Assembly (NCBI GenBank): GCA_028287235.1
Contig: JAQBQB010000030.1
Location: 1 to 64,000, forward strand
Direction of reading: 5' to 3'
DNA from: Gemmatimonadota bacterium
GTDB taxonomy: Bacteria; Gemmatimonadota; Gemmatimonadetes; Gemmatimonadales; Gemmatimonadaceae
DNA length: 64,000 nucleotides
Under the pieces are notes generated by a model that ran no database searches, was not told the DNA's origin, and was given only the letters and a program-made list of their open reading frames with translations. A program made the translations under genes and the position numbers. Numbering within the stretch: position 1 is the first letter of the stretch; each line of letters begins with the position of its first letter. This document shows positions 12,678 to 25,000 of the stretch, piece after piece.

Positions 12678-13310
12678 TTAGGCCCGGGCGTCGAGCGCCG
12701 CGCGAAGATCGCCGATGCCAAGCCCGAGCGCACGGAGCGCGACCAGCATGTGATACGTGAGGTCCGCTGCCTCGCTCAGCGCGCGCTCGCGGTTCTCGTC
12801 GGCGCAGGCCATGACCAGCTCGGCGGCTTCCTCGCCGAGCTTCTTCAAGCGAAGATTCCGATCGGCGAGCAGCTTCCGCGTGTAGCTCGGCTTGTCGGAC
12901 TGCGCCGCGACTGCGCGCGCGTGGATCGTGGCATCCAAACGATCGAGTGCGTCAGCCGCGTTTTGGGTTGCACCTTCGCTCGCCGTACCGAAGCAGCCGA
13001 CCGCTCCCGTGTGGCACGCCGGTCCGGCGGGTGCCACGGTCGCAACCACCGCATCGCCGTCGCAATCGGCGTGCAGCGCGACTACCCACTGCACGTTGCC
13101 GCTCGTCTCGCCCTTGTGCCACAGGCCGCGCGTGCGCGATCGATAGTGCATCTCGCCGGTCGCCATCGTGCGCGTGAGCGCTTCGCGATCCGCGTGCGCG
13201 ACCATCAACACCGCGCCTGTGCGAAAGTCCTGAGCCACCACGGTCACGAGACCACCCGCCTTCGAGAAGTCGAGACGATCGAGGTCTGTATCTACGCTCA
13301 GGCGAGTCAT
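12678..13310 (-). CDS. hisI: Bifunctional phosphoribosyl-AMP cyclohydrolase / phosphoribosyl-ATP pyrophosphatase
   Basis: A HisIE fusion of 210 residues catalysing steps 2 and 3 of histidine synthesis. The HisI half (about 1-110) has TRGLWHKGETSGNVQ, the metal-binding ADCDGD and the cysteines in GPACHTGAVGCF. The HisE half (about 118-205) has YTRKLLADRNLRLKKLGEEAAELVMA with the acidic Mg-binding residues. The start was placed at the ATG at 13310 because it overlaps the hisN stop by ATGA and begins the HisI domain; the open frame upstream is a shadow of hisN. It is the last gene of the his operon, three bases from the convergent permease stop. Confidence 0.95.
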   Translation of the reverse strand: MTRLSVDTDLDRLDFSKAGGLVTVVAQDFRTGAVLMVAHADREALTRTMATGEMHYRSRTRGLWHKGETSGNVQWVVALHADCDGDAVVATVAPAGPACHTGAVGCFGTASEGATQNAADALDRLDATIHARAVAAQSDKPSYTRKLLADRNLRLKKLGEEAAELVMACADENRERALSEAADLTYHMLVALRALGLGIGDLRAALDARA

Positions 13311-14107
13311 CGTCCGCCTCCGTTTTTCGTTTCCATCTCCGCGTTGCCGAGCACGTTCCGTGACTCGGCGGCGATCGTGAGATTCGTTGCGATCGCGCTG
13401 CCGCCGAACGCAGTAGCCCGGCCGGACCAGTCGGTGAACACGCCGCCCGCCTCGACGATCGCCGGCATCAACGCGGCCGCATCCCAGGCGGCGAGCGCGC
13501 CGTCCACCATGACCTCGGCGCGTCCCGTTGCGACGAGCAGATAGCCATAGCAGTCGCCCCACGATCGGCTGAGGGCAGCGCGGTCCGCCAGTCGCCGCCA
13601 ACTCTCGGCGTGTTCTGGAGCGGCCGCGAACCGCTCGTCGGTGGTCAGCACGGTGGCCGCCGACAATCGATCGACGGTGGAGACGTGCGCCCGTGCGCCG
13701 TTCCACCAGCAACCCTGCCCGTGTGCCGCGCACAGCAGCTCATCCAACACCGGAAAATACGCCGCGCCAGCCACGATCACTTCGCCGATGGATACGCCAA
13801 CCAACGTTCCCCACAAGGGAACGCCGCGGACGAAGCTCTTCGTTCCGTCGATCGGATCGATGATCCAGCGCCGGCGCGCGCCGCGGTCGAGCGCACCGAG
13901 CTCCTCACCGATGATGTCGTCTTCGGGAAAGCGCTGCGCGAGCCACTTGCGCGCCGCGGACTCGGCCGCGCGATCGGCGATGGTGACCGGCGATCCGTCG
14001 GCTTTGATTTCGACGGTGAGCTGCGATTTGAAGTGCCGGTTGGCGACGTTACCCGCCGCGCGTGCCAGATCGGCGACCGCTTCCAGCAGGAGAGACTCTT
14101 CGTTCAT
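13307..14107 (-). CDS. hisN: Histidinol-phosphatase, inositol monophosphatase family
   Basis: A 266-residue member of the Mg-dependent IMPase superfamily. It has the motifs GEELG (about 66-70), [12 protein letters not shown] (metal and phosphate site, about 82-93) and WDAAALMP (about 214-221). Its place inside the his operon, together with a HisB that has only the dehydratase domain, argues that this is the histidinol-phosphate phosphatase and not an inositol or PAP phosphatase. It overlaps hisF upstream and hisIE downstream by ATGA. Confidence 0.92.
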
Positions 14108-14877
14108 ACCAAGCTCGCTCGTGTGAGGACATCCGCTTCCGCGAGGCAGCGTTTGATCGCCGACACCGACGTCGTGCCGTCGTGCAGGATGCCCGCGACG
14201 AGCGCCGCGTCAGCATCCGACTGCGTCAACACGTCGACGACGTGCGCGGCCGTTCCTGCTCCGCCCGACGCGACGACCGGGATATCGACCTCCGAGGCGA
14301 CGGTGCGTGTCAGCTCGACGTCGTACCCGGTTCTGGCGCCGTCACGATCGATGCTCGTGAGGAGAATCTCACCCCCGCCAGCCGCGGCGCAACGCGCTGC
14401 CCACCCGACGGCGTCGAGACCCGTGTTCCGCCGCCCGCCGCCGACCCACACGTCCCAGCCGCCGCCACCGGCGCGCCGCTTGGCGTCGATGCTGGCGACT
14501 ATGCATTGCGACCCGAATCGATCGGCGGCCTCGGTGAGCAGCGATGGCCGTTCGACCGCGGCCGAGTTGATGCCCACTTTGTCCGCTCCGGCGCGCAACG
14601 CGCGGCGCACGTCGTCGCAGGTGCGGATGCCGCCGCCGACCGTTAGGGGAATGAACACACCCTCAGCGGTGCGCGAGACGAGCTCGAGCAGCGTCGCCCG
14701 CTGCTCCGGACCGGCCGAGATGTCGAGGTACACGATCTCGTCCGCCCCGTCGCGCTCGTACCGTGCGGCGAGCTCCATCGGATCGCCGGCGTCGCGAAGA
14801 TCGACGAAGCCGGTTCCCTTGACGACTCTGCCTCCGGCAACGTCGAGACACGCGATGATTCGCCGCGCGAGCGTCAT
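14104..14877 (-). CDS. hisF: Imidazole glycerol phosphate synthase, cyclase subunit
   Basis: A 257-residue (beta/alpha)8 barrel. It uses ammonia from HisH to convert PRFAR to imidazole glycerol phosphate and AICAR. The catalytic aspartates are visible in IIACLDV (residue 11) and in LLTSIDRDG (about residue 135). The phosphate-binding loops VGGGI and ASGGAG are intact. An [15 protein letters not shown] loop is glycine-rich but within family variation. It overlaps hisB and hisN by four bases each. Unlike many operons, hisF is separated from hisH by hisA and hisB. Confidence 0.97.
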
Positions 14878-15416
14878 GGTTCCGCGCGGAACGTGGCCGC
14901 GCCCTTCGTGCTGAACACGGCCGCTTCGGTCTCGCGCAACGCGTCGCGCAGCGCGAGGCCGAGCGCTTTGAACGCGGCTTCGACCACGTGATGCCGGTCG
15001 CGTCCGCGCAAGACGCGCAGATGGATCGTGGCGCCGGCGTTGTCGGCGAACGAGCGCATCCAGTGGTCGTACATGTTGCTCGGCAACGGTCCGGCATAGT
15101 ATGGCCGTCCGCCGATGTCGAGTGCGCAGTGCACGAGCGCGTCGTCCATGGGAATGGTTCGATCGCCGTAGCGCGCGCAGGCGGGCGGCGCGTATGCTGC
15201 GAACGCCTTGCCCAGGCAGATCGCGACGTCTTCGATGACGTGATGCCGCAGGTCGCCGCGCGCCGTGACGGTGAGTCCCAGTCCCGTGTATCTCGCCAGG
15301 GCCTGAAGCATGTGGTCGAGGAAGGGAACCGACGTGTCGATCGCCGTCGTCGCCGCGTCGGCGCTGATCGTTGCTCGAATGCGCGTCTCGCGGGTTTCAC
15401 GCTCGATGGTCGTCAT
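14874..15416 (-). CDS. hisB: Imidazoleglycerol-phosphate dehydratase (monofunctional)
   Basis: A 180-residue IGPD with the duplicated manganese-binding histidine motifs [12 protein letters not shown] and [15 protein letters not shown] in the first half and [20 protein letters not shown] in the second. The N-terminal phosphatase domain of the enterobacterial bifunctional HisB is absent, which explains the separate hisN. The start at 15416 is chosen because ATG ACG ACC overlaps the hisA stop by ATGA and gives the family's usual N-terminus. Confidence 0.95.
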
Positions 15417-16126
15417 GCTCCAAACTCCTCCGCCACGTCGCGCGGATTCAGGGTACCGGTGTACAGCGCCATGCCGACGACGGCGGCGGCAACACCCAGG
15501 CGCGCGAGCGCTCGCAGGTCGTCGAGCGTCGTGATTCCTCCCGATGCAATGACGGGAACCGACGACGCGCGAACGATGCTCTCGATCAACGACAGCGCGG
15601 GGCCGCGCATTTGTCCTTCCACGTCCACCGCGGTCACGAGCAGACCGGCGAGCGGCAGCGCGCTCAGCGAACCGACTGTGTCGAGCAGATCCCGATCGAT
15701 CGTTTCGGTCCATCCGCGAACGGCGAGCTGGCCGGCGCGCACGTCCGTCGCGACCATGAGGGTTCCTGGATAGCGCGACGCCTGGTCGGCGAGCCACTCC
15801 TCATCCTCCAGCGCGCGGGTGCCGACGACGACCTCCGAGGCGCCGGCGGCGAGCAACTGCTCGATTCGCTCCGCCGAGCGCACGCCACCGCCTACCTGCA
15901 CGCGCGCGCCGTCTTCGCGCAAGATCGCGTCGATGATCGGCGCGTTGGTGCCGCAGCCCATCGCGGCGTCGAGATCGACCACGTGCAGTCGCTCGAAGCC
16001 GACGTCGAGCCACTCGCGCGCTACGCGCACGGCGTCGGGCAGCCGAATACGCTCGTGTGCGTACGATCCACCCACGAGCTGGACGCACGCTCCGCCGCGC
16101 AGATCGATTGCGGGAATGGCGATCAT
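15413..16126 (-). CDS. hisA: ProFAR isomerase
   Basis: A 237-residue (beta/alpha)8 barrel that converts ProFAR to PRFAR. It begins with IPAIDLRGGACVQLVGG, containing the catalytic Asp at residue 8. The second catalytic Asp is in VTAVDVEGQMRGP (about residue 128). Phosphate loops QVGGGVRS and ASGGI are present. The start at 16126 overlaps the hisH stop by ATGA; the upstream open frame belongs to the hisH shadow. Confidence 0.96.
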   Translation of the reverse strand: MIAIPAIDLRGGACVQLVGGSYAHERIRLPDAVRVAREWLDVGFERLHVVDLDAAMGCGTNAPIIDAILREDGARVQVGGGVRSAERIEQLLAAGASEVVVGTRALEDEEWLADQASRYPGTLMVATDVRAGQLAVRGWTETIDRDLLDTVGSLSALPLAGLLVTAVDVEGQMRGPALSLIESIVRASSVPVIASGGITTLDDLRALARLGVAAAVVGMALYTGTLNPRDVAEEFGA

Positions 16127-16719
16127 CCGGAACACTCCGCGAGCGCGGCAGCGAGAAATCGAACGCCCGCCGCCGAGCTCTTCTCCGGATGAAACTGGAC
16201 ACCGATGGTGCGCGCATGGCGCACGACCGCGGGAAAGCGATCGCCCTCGTGTGTGGACCACGCGGTGACCGATTCCGCGCGTGCAGGACGCGTGACGAAC
16301 GAGTTCGCGTAGTACACCCAGGACAGCGGCGCAACGTTCAATAGCGGATCGACTCCCTCCTCCAGCGTGTTCCAGCCGATCTGCGGAACGCGTGTCGCCA
16401 CCAGGCGCTCTACACGGCCGCCAATCACGCCGAGGCCGCAACCGGCGCCCTCGTCACTGCTCTCGAAGAGAAGCTGCATGCCCAGACAGATGCCGATTGC
16501 CGGCAGGCCTCCCTCCAGCGCCGCCGCCATCGCCGAACGCGCGGGCGCCAGTCGCGTAGCCGCGTGCCCGAATGCTCCGACGCCGGGCAGCACGAGCACG
16601 TCGGTGTCGAGGCACCGAAGCGGATCGGACTCGGCGCGGACCGTTGCGCCCGCGAGCACGAGCGCCTTCTCGAGCGAGTGCAGGTTGCCGGCGCCGTAGT
16701 CGAAGATCGTCACCCGCAT
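16123..16719 (-). CDS. hisH: Imidazole glycerol phosphate synthase, glutamine amidotransferase subunit
   Basis: A 198-residue class-I glutamine amidotransferase. The nucleophile lies in GICLGMQLLFESS and the catalytic His in VQFHPEKSS. It opens with VTIFDYGAGNLHSLEKAL. It supplies ammonia to HisF. The ATG at 16719 overlaps the end of hisC by ten bases, and its own stop overlaps hisA. A longer in-frame start exists but extends into hisC and lacks family support. Confidence 0.96.
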   Translation of the reverse strand: MRVTIFDYGAGNLHSLEKALVLAGATVRAESDPLRCLDTDVLVLPGVGAFGHAATRLAPARSAMAAALEGGLPAIGICLGMQLLFESSDEGAGCGLGVIGGRVERLVATRVPQIGWNTLEEGVDPLLNVAPLSWVYYANSFVTRPARAESVTAWSTHEGDRFPAVVRHARTIGVQFHPEKSSAAGVRFLAAALAECSG

Positions 16720-17831
16720 GCCGCTCTCGCCTCGTCGAACGCGGCGAGCGCCGCTTCGAGCTCGGGCCACGGACCTACGGAGATGCGCAGCGCGGAGCCG
16801 TTCGTGAACTGTAGCGCGGGAATGTCGCAGTGCAGGTCGCTGAACGCGCGAACGGCGACGCCGCGGTCGCGCATGCCTCGCGCGATTCCGCGGGCATCCT
16901 TCATTGGAGCGAGGAGAAAGTTGCTGGCCGACGGCAGGACGTCGAGTCCGCGTTCGCGGAGCGCCGTAACGAGCGTGGCGCGGTTGGTGACTGCGTCAGC
17001 GACCCGCGCTCGCACCCAATCGAGATCCTCGGTGAGCGCCGCGACAGCCGCGCGTTCGGATGCGGCGCTCACCTTGTAGGGCCCGCGGGACTTTTCCACC
17101 TCGGCGATCAGCGTCGCATTGCCGATTCCGTATCCGACGCGCAGCCCCGCGAGTCCAAACGCCTTCGACAGCGTTCGTACTACGAGGAGCCGCGGCGAGC
17201 GCGCGACCAGATCGACGACGCTCGCACCACTGAACTCGACGTACGCTTCGTCGACGATCACCACGCCTCGCGCGCGTGCAATCACCGCTTCGATCGTCGC
17301 GCGCGGAACGATCGTGCCGGTTGGATTGTTCGGCGAGCAGAGATATACGATGGCCGGATCTCCGGCGAGCAGGCGATCGACGTCGAGGTCGTACGACGCG
17401 TTCAATGGAATTGGATCGACACTGAGTCCGTTCATTCGCGCGAAGAGCGGAACCATTGGAAAGGACGGCTGCAGCATCGCGAGACGGTCGCCGGACTCGG
17501 CGAACGCGCGGATCGCCGAGTCGAGCACGTCGTCGGAGCCGCAGTCCGTGACGATCATCGCCGGACTAACGGTGGGACAGTCCGCTCGCACGTACGCGGC
17601 GAGCGCCTCCTTGAGCGAAGCCGCGTACACGTCCGGATACCGGGCCAAGGCCGACTCCGGACTTGCGCGCAACTCGCGGAGCGCCGCCGGCGGCGCTCCC
17701 CATCGGTTAGTGTTGTCGCTCAGATCGATCGCGACAGCGCCGCGATCCGGCGTGTACAGCTGAACGTCGCGGAATGCGGCGCGTGTCTGCGCGCCGCTGT
17801 TCGAATCGATCGTGACGGCGTTCGTTGTCAT
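16710..17831 (-). CDS. hisC: Histidinol-phosphate aminotransferase
   Basis: A 373-residue fold-type I PLP enzyme. Visible motifs are LSDNTNRWGAPPAALREL near the start, CSPNNPTGT for substrate and PLP contact, VIVDEAYVEF, and the Schiff-base lysine in RTLSKAFGLAGLRVGYG (about residue 223). It transfers the amino group from glutamate to imidazole acetol phosphate. Start and stop overlap hisD (four bases) and hisH (ten bases). Confidence 0.95.
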   Translation of the reverse strand: MTTNAVTIDSNSGAQTRAAFRDVQLYTPDRGAVAIDLSDNTNRWGAPPAALRELRASPESALARYPDVYAASLKEALAAYVRADCPTVSPAMIVTDCGSDDVLDSAIRAFAESGDRLAMLQPSFPMVPLFARMNGLSVDPIPLNASYDLDVDRLLAGDPAIVYLCSPNNPTGTIVPRATIEAVIARARGVVIVDEAYVEFSGASVVDLVARSPRLLVVRTLSKAFGLAGLRVGYGIGNATLIAEVEKSRGPYKVSAASERAAVAALTEDLDWVRARVADAVTNRATLVTALRERGLDVLPSASNFLLAPMKDARGIARGMRDRGVAVRAFSDLHCDIPALQFTNGSALRISVGPWPELEAALAAFDEARAACG

Positions 17832-19135
17832 GCTGTGACTCCCAAGCGGCGCGCGGCCGCGGCGTGTGCGGGAAGAGATTCCGCGTCGGCGAACCGGCCG
17901 ACGTCGTCGGCGAGGCTTCGTGCGGCGTGTGGATCAATGCGTTGATACGTGGTCCAGCGAACGAAGTCGAGCGGTGAGAGCCCCGAATAGGCGCGAGCGG
18001 AGCCGCCGGTCGGCAAGACATGGTTGGCGCCCGTCATGTAGTCGCCGAATGTGACCGAAGACGTCTCGCCGAGGAAGACGGTGCCCGCGTTTCGCACGAG
18101 AGGAAGCAACGCGTCGGGGTCGCAGACCGCGAGCAGCAGGTGTTCCGGCGCGTATGCGTTGGCGAATTCGATCGCCGCGCGGAGTGTCGCTGCCACGAGG
18201 ATTCCGCCCTGCGCGGCCAACGCTGCACAGACTACCTGTTGCCGCTGCGCGCTCGCGGCAGCGGCTCTCAGGGCCTGCTCGAGGCGGCCGGCGGCAGACT
18301 CGCTCAATACTACCGCGACTACGCAAGCGCTCGGGTCGTGCTCCGCCTGCGCCACCATCTCGCTCGCGACGGCGCTCGGATCGGCATGCTCGTCGGCGAC
18401 GACGACCAGCTCGCTCGGACCGGCGGGCGAATCGATCGCCACGCTGTCGACGAGCTGCAGCTTGGCCGACGCGACGAACGCGTTCCCGGGGCCGACGATC
18501 CGATCGACACGCGGAATGGATTCTGTGCCGAGCGCCATCGCGGCGATCGCACCTGCGCCGCCCACCGCGAACACGCGATCGACTTCCGCGATCGCCGCGG
18601 CGGCGAGGACGGCCGCGGGCGGACTCCCCGCGCGATCCGGAGGTGAGCACAGAATGATCTCGCTCACCCCTGCCACGCGCGCGGGAATCGCGCCCATCAA
18701 CACGCTGCTCGGATAGCTGGCCCGGCCGCCGGGCGCGTACACACCGACGCTCCGCAGCGCATCGGGCCGGCGCCCCACGACAATGCCTGGCGCCGGCGAG
18801 GTTTCCATGGCTGTTGGTGCAAAGGCACGGTGCACGGTGGCGATGTTGCGTGCGGCGCGTTCCATCGCTTGGCGCAGTGGCTTGGGCATGCTGTCGAGCG
18901 CGCGGCCGAGCGCCGCGCGGGGAATTTCCAGCGCCTCCAGCTCGACGCGATCGAAGCGGCGCGCCATGTCGCGCAACGCTGCGTCGCCACGCGCGCGGAC
19001 GTCGGCGATGATGCGCGCCGATTCCGCCGCCACTGCCGGATCGCCGCCGGGGGCGCGATGGTACAGCGCGTTGCGGTCGCTCGACGTCAGCAAATCGAGC
19101 GATCCCGTGAACCGCAGGAAATCGGCGGCGCTCAT
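17828..19135 (-). CDS. hisD: Histidinol dehydrogenase
   Basis: A 435-residue zinc enzyme that oxidises histidinol to histidine in two NAD-dependent steps. Motifs seen are GVYAPGGRASYPSSVLM, AVGGAGAIAAMALGT, VGPGNAFVASAKL (about 225-240), DSPAGPSELVVVADE, AQAEHDP, YAPEHLLL, and GDYMTGANHVLPTGG with the zinc and catalytic histidine near 350-365. The start at ATG 19135 overlaps the hisG stop; an upstream in-frame extension is a shadow of hisG. Confidence 0.97.
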   Translation of the reverse strand: MSAADFLRFTGSLDLLTSSDRNALYHRAPGGDPAVAAESARIIADVRARGDAALRDMARRFDRVELEALEIPRAALGRALDSMPKPLRQAMERAARNIATVHRAFAPTAMETSPAPGIVVGRRPDALRSVGVYAPGGRASYPSSVLMGAIPARVAGVSEIILCSPPDRAGSPPAAVLAAAAIAEVDRVFAVGGAGAIAAMALGTESIPRVDRIVGPGNAFVASAKLQLVDSVAIDSPAGPSELVVVADEHADPSAVASEMVAQAEHDPSACVVAVVLSESAAGRLEQALRAAAASAQRQQVVCAALAAQGGILVAATLRAAIEFANAYAPEHLLLAVCDPDALLPLVRNAGTVFLGETSSVTFGDYMTGANHVLPTGGSARAYSGLSPLDFVRWTTYQRIDPHAARSLADDVGRFADAESLPAHAAAARRLGVTA

Positions 19136-20007
19136 GGAACGAGTCGTTCGATGCGGGTGACGAGAACACCTGTTGCGCCCAGCGCGCGCAGGTCGCCAAT
19201 CGTCTGGTAGATGTCGGACGCCGGCACGACGGCGTGCACGGCGACATATTCTCCACCATTGAGCACATCCACGACCGTTGGCCCACCGAGGCCAGGGAGA
19301 ATCCGTCGCACGTCGGAGAGAAGCCGGCGCGGAACGTTGGCCATCACGTATCGCTGTCCCTTGGCGCGAATCACCGACTCGAGTGCCGCCACGAGTCCGA
19401 CGATGGCGCGCGCGCGGTCGCTCGCGCCATCGAGCGACTCTGCCGTCGCGCGCGCACACACGAGACGCGCCGAGGACTCGAGTACCGTGGCGACTTCGCG
19501 AAGTCCGTTCACGCGAAGCGTCGAGCCCGACGACACGAGATCGACGATGACGTCGGCAATCCCGAGATGCGGTGCGATCTCCGCGGCGCCGGAGACAGGA
19601 ACGAGCTGGACGGCGCGCCCGAGCTTCGCGAAGTACTCGGCGCTGAGCCGCGGAAAAGCGGTGGCGACGCGCGCACCCTGCGGCACGTCGTCAGGGGTGT
19701 GAATACCACTGTCGTCGGTCGCCGCGAGACTGAGTCGGCAGCGGCCGAGCTCGAGGTCGAGCAGCGACACCACGTCGCGTCCCGACTCAGCGACGAGGTC
19801 CCACCCCGTGACGCCGATGTCGGCGGCTCCGTCGGCGACGAACTCGGGGATGTCCGCCGCGCGAACGAAGATCGCGTCGAACATGCCGCCGAGCGACGCG
19901 GTCAGCGCGCGCTCGTTCCGGACGCGAACGTCGAGTCCCGCGTCGGCGAACAGCTCGCGCGTGTCGTCGGCCAGCCGTCCCTTGTTGGGCAGTGCGATAC
20001 GTGGCAT
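19132..20007 (-). CDS. hisG: ATP phosphoribosyltransferase, long form
   Basis: A 291-residue first enzyme of histidine synthesis. The catalytic domains (about 1-210) begin RIALPNKGRL and include the PRPP loop in DLVSSGSTLRVNGL. The C-terminal ACT-like regulatory domain (about 212-290, with GGPTVVDVLNGGEYVAVHAVV) marks the HisZ-independent long form that is feedback-inhibited by histidine. It is the first structural gene of the his operon and lies 94 bases after the His-rich leader peptide, with an intrinsic terminator between them. Confidence 0.96.
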   Translation of the reverse strand: MPRIALPNKGRLADDTRELFADAGLDVRVRNERALTASLGGMFDAIFVRAADIPEFVADGAADIGVTGWDLVAESGRDVVSLLDLELGRCRLSLAATDDSGIHTPDDVPQGARVATAFPRLSAEYFAKLGRAVQLVPVSGAAEIAPHLGIADVIVDLVSSGSTLRVNGLREVATVLESSARLVCARATAESLDGASDRARAIVGLVAALESVIRAKGQRYVMANVPRRLLSDVRRILPGLGGPTVVDVLNGGEYVAVHAVVPASDIYQTIGDLRALGATGVLVTRIERLVP

Positions 20008-20033
20008 TGGAAAATTCGAGAAATTCGAGAGAG

Positions 20034-20065
20034 AAAAAACAAAAAGGCCCGTCGAAAGACGGGCC
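20034..20065 (-). terminator. his operon attenuator terminator
   Basis: Read on the minus strand, GGCCCGTC (20065-20058), a 4-base loop, and GACGGGCC (20053-20046) are followed at once by TTTTTGTTTTTT. This is a strong intrinsic terminator placed between the leader peptide and hisG. Its 5' arm GGCCCG is complementary to CGGGCC inside the leader ORF (20133-20128, codons 18-20), giving a plausible antiterminator. Confidence 0.88.
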
Positions 20066-20101
20066 GCAGATTGGAACGCGAGTGTGTAGTGGTGACGACC
20101 G

Positions 20102-20185
20102 CTACGCGTGCACGCGTACCTCCCCAGGGCCCGAGGGACCGTGGTGATGGCGATGCGTGTGGTGCGTGCGGTTGATCGGCTGCAT
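20102..20185 (-). CDS. hisL: Histidine operon leader peptide (His-rich, 27 aa)
   Basis: A 27-codon ORF on the his operon strand, starting ATG at 20185 and ending TAG at 20104-20102. Residues 8, 9, 11, 13, 14 and 15 are histidine (core THHTHRHHHG), with a seventh at 26. It precedes a strong intrinsic terminator and hisG, the classical layout of ribosome-mediated attenuation. When His-tRNA is scarce, a ribosome stalled at codons 8-15 would leave codons 18-20 free to pair with the terminator's 5' arm, so hisG is transcribed. No Shine-Dalgarno is visible. A TACGTT box ends six bases before the ATG, so the leader may be leaderless. It is only 32 bases after the CAP-domain gene on the same strand. 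Confidence 0.85.
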   Translation of the reverse strand: MQPINRTHHTHRHHHGPSGPGEVRVHA

Positions 20186-20217
20186 GGAAGTAACGTACAC
20201 CGGTGGATGCGGATCAG

Positions 20218-20970
20218 TCAACGTGGGACGAAGGAGCCGGCCTGGTCGATCACGCACACGACCCCGTATTTCGGATGCGGCGCGCATCCGATGCCGACGA
20301 CGCGTGCACCGGGGTCGAACGTGTTCCGGCGGTGGCCGCGATCGGGCACCCCGTCGTCGATGATCATGTCTTCGATGACGTCGCGCCCGGAGATCACGCT
20401 GCCGTAGTCCGCATTTTCGGAGTAGCTCCCGCCCCACGTCCCGTAGCGGGCGAGGCGCGCTTCGGGCGACGCCCCGTCGGAGCTCGTGTGGCCCACGGCG
20501 CCCGTTCGCCTCTGATCGTTGGCGAGATCGCGCGCGGCCTTCGACATCGCGTCACTGAGCGTGAGCGTAGCGACGCGCGGTTGCGATCCGAGCGCGTCGA
20601 TCGCCTCGCGCACGGCGGATGGCCCCTCGCTCGTTTGGACGGCGACGGGCCAACCGGGCCGTCGCAGCCGATTGCCGCTGAACAGAGGCAGTAGCGGCGT
20701 CAGATTCGCCGCATACGACTGCGGGTTGTCGCGCGCCGAATTCAACTCGAACAAGACTTCGCGCTCGAGGCGCGCGAAATCCACGGGAGTGCGTGTGGAC
20801 GACGTCGAGGCCGGCGCGGTGGTGACGCCAGGAACCGTGCTACACGAGACGAGCGCGGCCATGGCCGCGACTGTACATCCATGTCTCGCAAGCGGGACGA
20901 CACCGTCTCCCGGCACAGACGAAATCCGATTGGTGACTCGGGTCACGAGCATGCGAAGTCGTTTATGCAT
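20218..20970 (-). CDS. CAP/SCP-domain lipoprotein
   Basis: An exported protein with an N-terminal hydrophobic stretch ending in a lipobox-like LVSC. A CAP (SCP/TAPS/PR1) domain follows (about residues 85-250), with LFELNSARDNPQSYA, the ENADYG loop and GHRRNTFDPGARVVGIGCA, plus two cysteines in the last strands. Bacterial CAP proteins are secreted, with proposed lipid-binding or protease-like roles, none certain. The ATG at 20970 (MHKRL) gives the best signal peptide; an upstream in-frame ATG at 21009 is possible. It is transcribed toward the his leader with no terminator between. Confidence 0.78.
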   Translation of the reverse strand: MHKRLRMLVTRVTNRISSVPGDGVVPLARHGCTVAAMAALVSCSTVPGVTTAPASTSSTRTPVDFARLEREVLFELNSARDNPQSYAANLTPLLPLFSGNRLRRPGWPVAVQTSEGPSAVREAIDALGSQPRVATLTLSDAMSKAARDLANDQRRTGAVGHTSSDGASPEARLARYGTWGGSYSENADYGSVISGRDVIEDMIIDDGVPDRGHRRNTFDPGARVVGIGCAPHPKYGVVCVIDQAGSFVPR

Positions 20971-21057
20971 CGGCAGTTGTCGATTCGCGAAAATCGCGCC
21001 CGGCGGCACTGCACGTGCCTGTCGAGAGGTGTGAAGTCATGTCCCCAGGAGGATTGG

Positions 21058-21507
21058 ATGCGAAAGGTCGAGCTATTTGTCGTGCTTGGAATGTTGGCCG
21101 CCGCAGCGCCCGCGATGGCGCAGAGTCGCGGCAAAGGGAACGACGGCGTTCCGCCGGGCCAACGGCCGAGGGCCGGCATGTGCCGAATTTGGGTCGACGG
21201 TCTGCCTCCCGGCCAACAGCCCGCGCCCACGGACTGTGCGACGGCGCGCGCACGCGTCCCGTCGAACGGTCGAATTCTCTTCGGATCGCGCACGCAATCC
21301 AACCGGCATCTGAATACGTCGAATGGACAGGTGGTGGGCGTGAACGGCCAGCCTTGCGTCCAGCGCGCCGACCAGAACGGCACGCTCCGCACGCTGTGTC
21401 GTGACATGAATGCGTCGAGTGAGGACCGCGCCGACCGCAACGACGACGATCGCGACAATCACAAGGGGAAGAAGCTGAAAAAACCCAAAGGCGACCGCGA
21501 CGATTAA
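21058..21507 (+). CDS. Small exported protein with a charged C-terminal tail
   Basis: A 149-residue protein preceded by an excellent Shine-Dalgarno (AGGAGG, six bases before ATG), which fixes the start at 21058. A signal peptide covers residues 1-22 (APAMA-Q). The mature part has a PPGQRPRAGMCRIWVDGLPPGQQP segment seen in other small secreted proteins of soil bacteria, four cysteines, and a highly charged Asp/Arg/Lys tail. Function unknown. Ten bases separate it from the next gene. Confidence 0.75.
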   Translation: MRKVELFVVLGMLAAAAPAMAQSRGKGNDGVPPGQRPRAGMCRIWVDGLPPGQQPAPTDCATARARVPSNGRILFGSRTQSNRHLNTSNGQVVGVNGQPCVQRADQNGTLRTLCRDMNASSEDRADRNDDDRDNHKGKKLKKPKGDRDD

Positions 21508-22087: not shown

Positions 22088-25000
22088 TGCTCGATCAAAC
22101 GCCGCGCTTCGATCTCGCCGCCGCCGAGCGCTTGGCGCGAGAACATTTCGGAATCGAGGGCCGCGCCAGCGTCCTAACGAGCGAGCGCGATCAGAATTTC
22201 CTCATCACGGCGCGAGACGGGCGCCGCGCCGTTCTCAAGATCGCCAACGCCGCGGAAGACCGGGCGATGCTCGCTGCGCAGCAGGAAGCGCTCGTGCACC
22301 TGTCCACCCGCGTGCCGACGACGCCGCGCGTCGTGCCGGCGACCGGGGCGACGACGCTCGTCGAGATCGATGGAGAGGATGGACGCCGCCACCTGATGTG
22401 GGCGATCACCTGGCTGCCCGGCCGCCCGCTCAGTACGGCGCCGCGCCGGAGCGCGGCCCTGCTCGCGGACTTCGGCCGGCAAATCGGCGTGCTCACTGCC
22501 GCGCTCGCGCACTTCGACAGTCCGGGAATTCATCGCGACTTCTATTGGGATCTCGCCAACGGTCGCGCGATGGTCGCTCGGCATCGGCCGCTCATTACCA
22601 ACGGTCCGCTCGGACGAGCTCTCGATCGGTTGATTGGCGAGTTCGACGTTCGAACGGCGCCGCTGCTCGAGCGGCTTCCGCGCGCCGCGATCCACAGCGA
22701 CTTGAACGACTACAACGTCCTCGTCGGAGGCTGGGACGACGTCGAGTCGCGCGAGCAACGCGTCACCGGCATCGTCGACTTCGGCGACATGGTGTACAGC
22801 TATCGCGTCGGCGATCTCGCGATCGCCATCGCCTACGCGATCCTCGGCTCCGACGATCCGCTCGCCGTCGTGTCGCAGATGGTGCGCGGCTACTCCGAGA
22901 GGGCGACGCTCGACGACGGCGAGCTTTCGGCGCTGTTCGGTCTCGTGGTGCTTCGGCTGTGCACGAGTGTCTGCATCGCCGTGGATCAGCTCCGGCAGCG
23001 GCCCGACAACGAATACCTCGGCGTCAGCCAGTCGGCGATCGCCGGCATGTTGCCCACGCTCGAGGCGATCCCATTCAGGCTCGCCGAGGCCGTCGTGCGC
23101 GAAGCCGCCGGAGTTACGCCGGTTCCGGCGAGCGTTCTCGTAGCTGACTTTCTCCAGCGCGCGCCCAACATCGCGCCGGTGCTCGGCGCGGACCTGCGCA
23201 CCGAGCCGAGCATCGTGCTCGATCTCAGCATCGCGAGTCCAATGATTGGCGGTGACGCGAACGAGAACGCCGAGCCGAGGCTCACGGAGCGCGTGTTCGG
23301 TGCGATGCGCGATGCCGGTGTTCGCGTCGCCGTTGGCCGGTACGATGAGCCGCGCCTCCTATACGTGGCGCCGGCGTTTGCGCTCGGCGCGCGTCCGACC
23401 GACGAGCATCGCACGATTCACATCGGACTCGATCTGTTCGCCGCAACGGGCGCGCCGGTCTTTGCGCCGCTGGCCGGTGTGGTACATGCCTTCGCCGACA
23501 ACGCCTCGCCACAAGACTACGGTCCGGTGATCGTGCTGCGCCACATCACGGACGATGGCACGCCCTTCTTCACGCTCTACGGCCATTTGAGTCGCGAGTC
23601 GCTAGATGGGCTGACGATTGGACAGACCGTCGCCGCCGGCGAGCAGATCGCGACGCTCGGTGCGCCCGAAGTGAACGGCGGATGGACGCCGCATCTGCAC
23701 CTGCAGATCATCACCGATCTGCTCGGGCTCGACACCGACTTTCCGGGTGTCGCGCGGCCGACGCAGCGCGGCGTGTGGCGCGCGCTCTGCCCCGACCCGA
23801 ATCTCCTCGCGCGCGTCCCCGCCGATCGATTCCCTGGCGCGGCACTCTCCAAGAGCGAAACGCTCGCCGACCGCCGCGCCATGATCGGACACAACTTGAG
23901 CATCGCCTACCGCGACCCGGTGAAGATCGTGCGCGGGTGGAAGCAGTATCTCTACGACGACGAGGGCCGGCGGTACATCGACGCGTACAACAACGTGCCG
24001 CACGTCGGGCATGCGCACCCGCGCGTCGTGGAGGCGGGCGTCGCACAGATGCGCGTGCTCAACACGAACACGCGCTACCTCAACGATCTGCTCACGCAGT
24101 ACGCCGACCGACTGCTCGAGACGCTGCCGCCCGCGCTCGACGTCTGCTACTTCGTGAACTCGGCGAGCGAGGCGAACGAGCTGGCGCTGCGCCTCACGCG
24201 CGCCTACACCGGCCGGCGCGACATGATCGTGCTCGAGGCGGCGTATCACGGCAACACGACGTCGCTCATCGACATCAGCCCCTACAAGCATGCGGGGCCC
24301 GGGGGAGCCGGTGCGCCGAAATGGGTACACGTTGCGCCGCTGCCCGATGACTACCGCGGGCCGTACAAGCGCGGCGACGGTCATGCGGGCGCGAAGTACG
24401 CGGCGCAGGTCGCGTCGATCGTCGATCGGATTGGACTCGTGGGTGGCTTCATCGCCGAGACGTGTCCGAGCGTGGGCGGGCAGCTCCTATTTCCGAAGGA
24501 TTATTTAGGAAATGTATATGAGCGTGTTCGCGCGGCGGGCGGCGTGTGCATCGCCGACGAGGTGCAAACGGGGCTCGGCAGAATGGGCACGAGCTTCTGG
24601 GCGTTCGAGGCGCATGGTGTGGTGCCCGACATGGTGGTGATGGGCAAGCCGCTGGGCAACGGTCATCCGATCGCCGCGGTGGCGACGACGCGGGCCATCG
24701 CCGACGCGTTCGACAACGGCATGGAGTACTTCAGCACCTTCGGGGGAAATACCGTATCGTGCGCGATCGGCATCGCGGTGCTCGACGTGCTGCGCGACGA
24801 AGGGTTGCAGGAGCACGCGCGAGTGGTTGGGGACGAGATGCTCGCGAAGCTGCGGACGCTCGCCGACCGCTATCCGCTGATTGGCGACGTGCGTGGATCG
24901 GGGCTGTTTCTCGGTGTGGAGCTCGTCCGCGATCGCGAAACGTTGGAGCCGGCGGGCGAAGAGGCGTCGTTCGTCGCCAACCGAATGCGCGAGCGCGGCA

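Follow-up and report, generated by a model that had tools for sequence, protein, structure and literature searches.

We propose that the histidine operon in the window, the whole 64,000-nt stretch of soil-bacterium DNA analysed here, is very probably controlled by a ribosome-mediated transcription attenuator with a leaderless leader peptide. The analysis shows the anatomy of this element, its conservation, a constraint at the RNA level, covariation of arms 1:2 and 3:4, and a structural switch predicted by folding. A known mechanism in a phylum-wide variant, with a conserved start that is probably leaderless, is very well supported by the sequence.

In the proposed mechanism, for which we infer the transcription start, leaderless initiation and the response to histidine starvation, the transcript would begin at the leader AUG or no more than a few bases from it, and ribosomes would load on the RNA 5′ end with no need for a Shine-Dalgarno site. 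If charged tRNA-His is sufficient, the ribosome would clear the run of His codons, region 2 would fold with region 1, and the terminator would form from regions 3 and 4. Under a shortage of charged tRNA-His, the ribosome would stall at codons 8-14 and cover region 1, so that region 2 could pair with region 3 ahead of the synthesis of region 4; once this 2:3 antiterminator had formed, RNA polymerase would continue into hisGDCHABFN.

Anatomy of the his leader region

The leader ORF lies on the minus strand at 20102-20185 (read from 20185 to 20102), encodes the 27-residue peptide MQPINRTHHTHRHHHGPSGPGEVRVHA, and is conserved in relatives. Histidine occupies codons 8, 9, 11, 13, 14, and 15, with one more at codon 26; the run HHTHRHHH (codons 8-15, 20141-20164) is the predicted stalling site, based on its frequency relative to controls and a scan of ribosome positions. 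An earlier note, made from the sequence alone, had described a 27-codon ORF with six histidines in codons 8-15 preceding a terminator and then hisG, and its coordinates and claims were right. It had also pointed to a TACGTT box ending six bases before the ATG and to the lack of a Shine-Dalgarno site. We found the box (the -10 box, 20192-20197) and no Shine-Dalgarno site before the window's leader ATG, together with a matching -35 box, TTGACT (20216-20221), that had been missed. An 18-nt spacer separates the two boxes. The TTGAC of the -35 box is conserved in relatives and recurs in a genome-wide pattern, and the box overlaps the stop codon of an upstream CAP-domain gene on the same strand, whose end at 20218 lies 33 nt upstream of the leader. 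A short ORF on the plus strand (20881-21507), secreted-looking and divergently oriented to the CAP gene, had no match in Pfam at E 1e-4. The window holds another His-rich stretch, at 24642 on the minus strand; it is antisense to an aminotransferase gene and was set aside.

The four RNA regions also lie on the minus strand. Region 1, the protector arm GGTCC (codons 16-17, 20136-20140), would be masked by a ribosome stalled on the His run. Region 2, the antiterminator arm CGGGCC (codons 18-20, 20128-20133), is a copy of the terminator 3′ arm, and its GGGCC can also pair with region 1. Region 3 is the terminator 5′ arm GGCCCGTC (20058-20065), and region 4 comprises the 3′ arm GACGGGCC (20053-20046) and the T-run (20034-20053 together). 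The terminator stem (20065-20046) reads GGCCCGTC-TTTC-GACGGGCC, then TTTTTG, and was the single match in a terminator scan of 19500-20700. The complementarity of the terminator GGCCCG to CGGGCC at codons 18-20, claimed before, was confirmed at 20133-20128; in the window, pairing of region 2 with region 3 amounts to 6 bp only.

Downstream of the leader is an eight-gene operon, hisGDCHABFN, all in one direction on the minus strand: hisG, encoding the long form of ATP phosphoribosyltransferase (19132-20007; TIGR00070 and TIGR03455), hisD (17828-19135; TIGR00069), hisC (16710-17831; TIGR01141, slightly below cut-off), hisH (16123-16713, approximate start; TIGR01855), hisA (15413-16126, approximate start; TIGR00007, slightly below cut-off), the hisB dehydratase gene (14874-15416, approximate start; HisB models, best E 3.5e-49, below cut-off), hisF (14104-14877; TIGR00735), and a gene for a hisN-type histidinol phosphatase (13307-14107; TIGR02067). 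Some known attenuators sequester a ribosome-binding site (PMC9413887), and the leader could similarly control hisG translation rather than transcription termination. We consider this very unlikely, as a terminator with a T-run was present in 104 of 104 analysed loci, its core nearly always GGCCCGTCC/GGACGGGCC, and in the window it ends about 39 nt before hisG.

To model a transcriptional switch, we folded nascent RNA that ended immediately upstream of the terminator 3′ arm, and let a ribosome cover the leader, its front edge set 13 nt beyond the first nucleotide of the codon in the A site. When this ribosome sat on the first His codon, the probability of pairing between the leader and the terminator 5′ arm was 0.79 on average, compared to 0.36 without a ribosome, and exceeded 0.5 in 102 of 104 loci. 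Leaders with shuffled codon order gave 0.56 when stalled and 0.43 without a ribosome. Pairing in the window was 0.71-0.75 at A-site codons 6-14, 0.37 at codon 15, and at most 0.40 later or elsewhere. Across 56 distinct loci, it was approximately 0.8 when the ribosome stood 3-7 codons short of the run's last His, much the same when it stood on the codons preceding the run, and no higher than 0.24 at positions two or more codons beyond that His. Because this boundary falls at the end of the His run, a His stall sits where it would matter, and the model predicts that the antiterminator is favoured by a ribosome stalled on the His codons. Equilibrium folding of the complete RNA favoured the terminator in all states; since the complete terminator is more stable in every state, the modelled switch must be kinetic, as in classical attenuators.

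Conservation of the leader and constraint on its RNA arms

HisG relatives were collected from public genomes and from genome searches of the same phylum and two others, yielding 133 loci whose HisG was at least 55% identical and whose upstream DNA was long enough. At least five His in eight codons were found within 300 nt upstream at 123 of these loci, versus 1 of 3,964 control pieces of 300 nt taken from the same loci, which argues that the His cluster is not due to chance. With a threshold of at least four His in eight codons, the counts were 128 of 133 and 37 of 3,964. No leader was seen in three exceptions among the 133 loci (L160, L143, and L144). In L031 the leader has decayed to two His, and the terminator and an ACGGGG after the His codons are kept.

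The nearest named HisG relatives belong to the Gemmatimonadaceae, which fits the earlier guess that the DNA came from Gemmatimonadota. The leader goes with the HisG type and is also present in Myxococcota, including Myxococcus xanthus (L061), and in Eisenbacteria. The HisG tree places the Myxococcota in a single clade next to Gemmatimonadota lineages, with Eisenbacteria sequences among them, a topology consistent with joint transfer of the his operon and its attenuator. Divergent HisG proteins (approximately 30-37% identity) of other Gemmatimonadota and some Myxococcota often have their own His-rich leader with a different terminator core, GCCGGC, making up a second his attenuator type (L170, L173, L176, L178, L179, L166, and L209). 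Short HisG adjoining a HisZ-like ORF had no leader directly upstream. A similarity search of plasmid DNA returned no match.

Two records labelled Comamonas sp. KCTC 72670 (L036) and Candidatus Kuenenia (L076) contain HisG and leaders whose closest grouping is with Myxococcus-like and Gemmatimonas-like sequences, and are probably mislabelled or contaminated. Of the 395 Gemmatimonadota genomes in the phylum search, 123 gave no HisG match; the genus to which the window belongs has four further members, and three of them are among these 123. Either histidine auxotrophy or a missed homologue would explain this.

With a CAP-domain gene ending so close upstream on the same strand, the terminator might merely end the CAP transcript and the His-rich ORF be a chance occurrence. 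This reading appears extremely improbable, as the ORF, the terminator core, and the promoter are all conserved across three phyla and chance produced such a cluster in only the one control piece. Conservation instead favours the attenuator, and it extends to the arms. In most leaders, the terminator 3′ arm is copied into the codons after the His run, with a protector arm before the copy; the sequence there is GGC CCG ACG GGY CGG or a variant of it. Region 1 GGCCC is able to pair with region 2 GGGYC, and region 3, the terminator 5′ arm, with ACGGGYC. A 1:2 hairpin was found in 91 of 104 loci.

Translation of the ACGGG element gives Thr-Gly in most Gemmatimonadota, Asp-Gly in Myxococcota, and Ser-Arg-Ala in L074. 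The use of this element in three reading frames indicates that the RNA rather than the peptide is conserved and points to selection on the RNA after the His run. Histidine runs bind metals, and the His-rich peptide could itself be the product, whether metal-binding or trans-acting, with RNA pairing secondary. A parallel is peTrpL of Sinorhizobium meliloti, which acts in trans (PMC7298713). We nonetheless judge a peptide product highly improbable, because the RNA after the His run is kept while reading frame and amino acids change, and because Tyr-, Asn-, and Cys-rich leaders precede matching amino-acid or tRNA genes in the same genome (see below).

Covariation was consistent with RNA pairing in the attenuator. 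L108 has a changed core, GACAGG/CCTGTC (G to A, C to T), that matches in the leader and in the two arms of the terminator. A GGGT/ACCC change likewise matches in all three places in L013, L077, and L096; L101, with a mismatch, is a counter-example. When the pairing energy of own arms was compared with that of swapped arms among distinct loci, in permutation statistics that ignore the relatedness of loci, none of 5,000 permutations was as good for the protector and none of 5,000 for the terminator. The antiterminator swap test was weak on 62 distinct loci (351 of 5,000), as expected because the core hardly varies, and gave 1 of 5,000 on all 104. Synonymous-codon shuffles were rejected as a test of the shared arm. 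They had no power because codon bias and the conserved TG already give the motif, most of which was kept. The earlier note had offered a full attenuation model and suggested looking for a conserved His run and compensating arm changes, and folding the region. The His-run conservation and the compensating changes, with the swap tests of protector and terminator, support that model, and the leader-terminator RNA folds better than shuffles (z -3.2).

Promoter geometry and the predicted leaderless start

At 97 of 104 loci, a TTGAC box was present 34-40 nt upstream of the leader's start codon. The -10 box is usually TAnnnT, divergent in some lineages, with a spacer of 17 nt (79 loci) or 18 nt (17 loci), and its end lies 5-11 nt upstream of the start codon, 7 nt being the commonest distance. 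The leaders begin with ATG in 79 cases and with GTG in 18, the latter mostly in Myxococcota, and motifs resembling a Shine-Dalgarno site preceded 12 of 97 starts. Transcription starts about 7 nt after a -10 box, so the position of this box implies a 5′ UTR of zero to a few nucleotides; in the window, the predicted start falls on the A of the leader ATG, with a 5′ UTR of zero. This promoter and start-codon geometry is conserved across three phyla, and a leaderless or nearly leaderless start therefore looks ancestral. Promoter and start codon are separated by an almost constant distance, which suggests a design that has leaderless translation built in.

A whole-genome scan for TTGAC-N18/19-TANNNT-N5/8-ATG returned 18 sites, versus 0 for a reversed control. 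These observations bear on the possibility that the attenuator is real yet not leaderless, with transcription starting farther upstream and translation relying on a weak site or on ribosomes arriving from the CAP gene. The transcription start is a prediction only, seven of the 104 loci have no TTGAC at the expected spacing, and some gaps between -10 box and ATG are 9-11 nt, all of which leave room for an upstream start. We consider it unlikely, however, given that the whole arrangement of TTGAC, 17-18 nt, a TAnnnT-like box, 5-11 nt, and a start codon is kept in three phyla, including at the GTG starts of Myxococcota, that few starts have a Shine-Dalgarno-like motif, and that the pattern recurs in the genome and not in its reversed control. 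A leaderless attenuator of this kind would lend itself naturally to work on the coupling of leaderless ribosomes to RNA polymerase, and M. xanthus, which carries the leader, is genetically tractable.

Known attenuators and candidate leaders for other amino acids

The gammaproteobacterial his leader (hisL), which we take to be Rfam His_leader (RF00514), likewise combines a short ORF containing a His run, alternative RNA pairings, and an intrinsic terminator before the his operon. The element described here differs in its phyla, in its predicted leaderless start, and in having protector and antiterminator arms inside the leader ORF after the His run. It also lacked an Rfam match: the window matched no family at the gathering threshold, and at the relaxed threshold no leader family, His_leader included, was among the matches to E = 10 at the leader site.

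The earlier note placed his attenuation classically in Gammaproteobacteria, where it does occur, but it is not confined there: the available text of PMC9413887 describes his attenuators for Proteobacteria and three Firmicutes lineages. The Firmicutes examples, also recognized by genome comparison, share a His-rich leader and a predicted terminator and antiterminator; they are from small scattered lineages (17 genomes), and that text does not mention leaderless starts. Unlike them, the element here is near-universal on one HisG type in its phylum and common to two other phyla. No his attenuators are reported for Actinobacteria in the portion of PMC1262725 available.

The leaderless leader had been proposed before as unusual. 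The conserved promoter geometry (97 of 104 loci) supports the proposal, but not the epithet, as attenuator leaders of this type have been described for S. meliloti trpL (PMC7298713) and Streptomyces leuL, trpL, and ilvL (PMC8079986), and leaderless polycysteine ORFs for mycobacteria (Canestrari 2020, via PMC9031893). As far as the accessible portions of these sources go, all have a short amino-acid-rich ORF read from the transcript 5′ end upstream of related genes; they involve other amino acids and phyla, with no His member found and no comparable conserved terminator core described. Literature searches, with most subscription journals outside their reach, returned nothing on his attenuators in Gemmatimonadota or Myxococcota or on leader-peptide attenuation of tRNA-Asn. 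The mechanism is known; as far as we found, the phylum, the compact layout, and the conserved leaderless start would be new. Within the searchable literature, the element thus adds a phylum without a previously reported attenuator of this kind, and a his attenuator kept across three phyla with its operon.

The promoter pattern alone yielded further attenuator candidates for Tyr, Asn, and Cys, less tested than his: besides the his leader, four amino-acid-rich ORFs followed by terminators were among the pattern sites. A Tyr-rich leaderless-type leader, MSCATAYRYYYYYATPNTGRWSRTR, and a terminator precede genes for DAHP synthase (aroF) and prephenate dehydrogenase (tyrA) at L236 (G000:C23:177800-181400, minus 94-171). 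A second, MSSLSARANYSYRYYYATRSPGRRSERLRV, and its terminator precede the gene for phenylalanine 4-monooxygenase, which makes tyrosine, at L237 (G000:C23:399000-402500). At L239:76-228 (G000:C9), a Cys-rich leaderless-type leader, CCTPVCCCMTMCH, and a terminator stand before a gene of the NirA/sulfite-reductase family, resembling mycobacterial polycysteine attenuators. Finally, an Asn-rich leader, MMTPANNSNRLNNRNSSRRSG, and a terminator directly precede tRNA-Asn(GTT) at L238:76-301 (G000:C28).

We lean slightly towards the view that, in Gemmatimonadota and partly in Myxococcota, a family of leaderless attenuators provides a general response to amino-acid starvation. A single design of promoter, leader, and terminator, in which the leader ORF contains a copy of the terminator 3′ arm, would be reused with His, Tyr, Asn, or Cys codons, and one member with Asn codons would control tRNA-Asn. 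The aromatic leader is present at most of 11 orthologous DAHP synthases (at least 65% identity; L272-L282) and absent from the paralogues examined; many have the leaderless promoter pattern, and several share CACGGG(CC) with the terminator.

Attenuation of a tRNA-Asn gene is possible and, if true, sensing of Asn codons there would be ribosome-mediated feedback on tRNA supply. Seven tRNA-Asn loci, the one above and six others (L243, L244, L246, L248, L252, and L261), have similar Asn-rich leaders (at least four Asn in eight codons), all with terminators, in which a copy of the terminator arm is not clear. Synthesis of Asn on the tRNA in genomes without AsnRS was rejected as an explanation for these leaders, since 16 of the 17 genomes checked have AsnRS whether or not they carry the leader; the remaining genome has AsnRS as two partial pieces.
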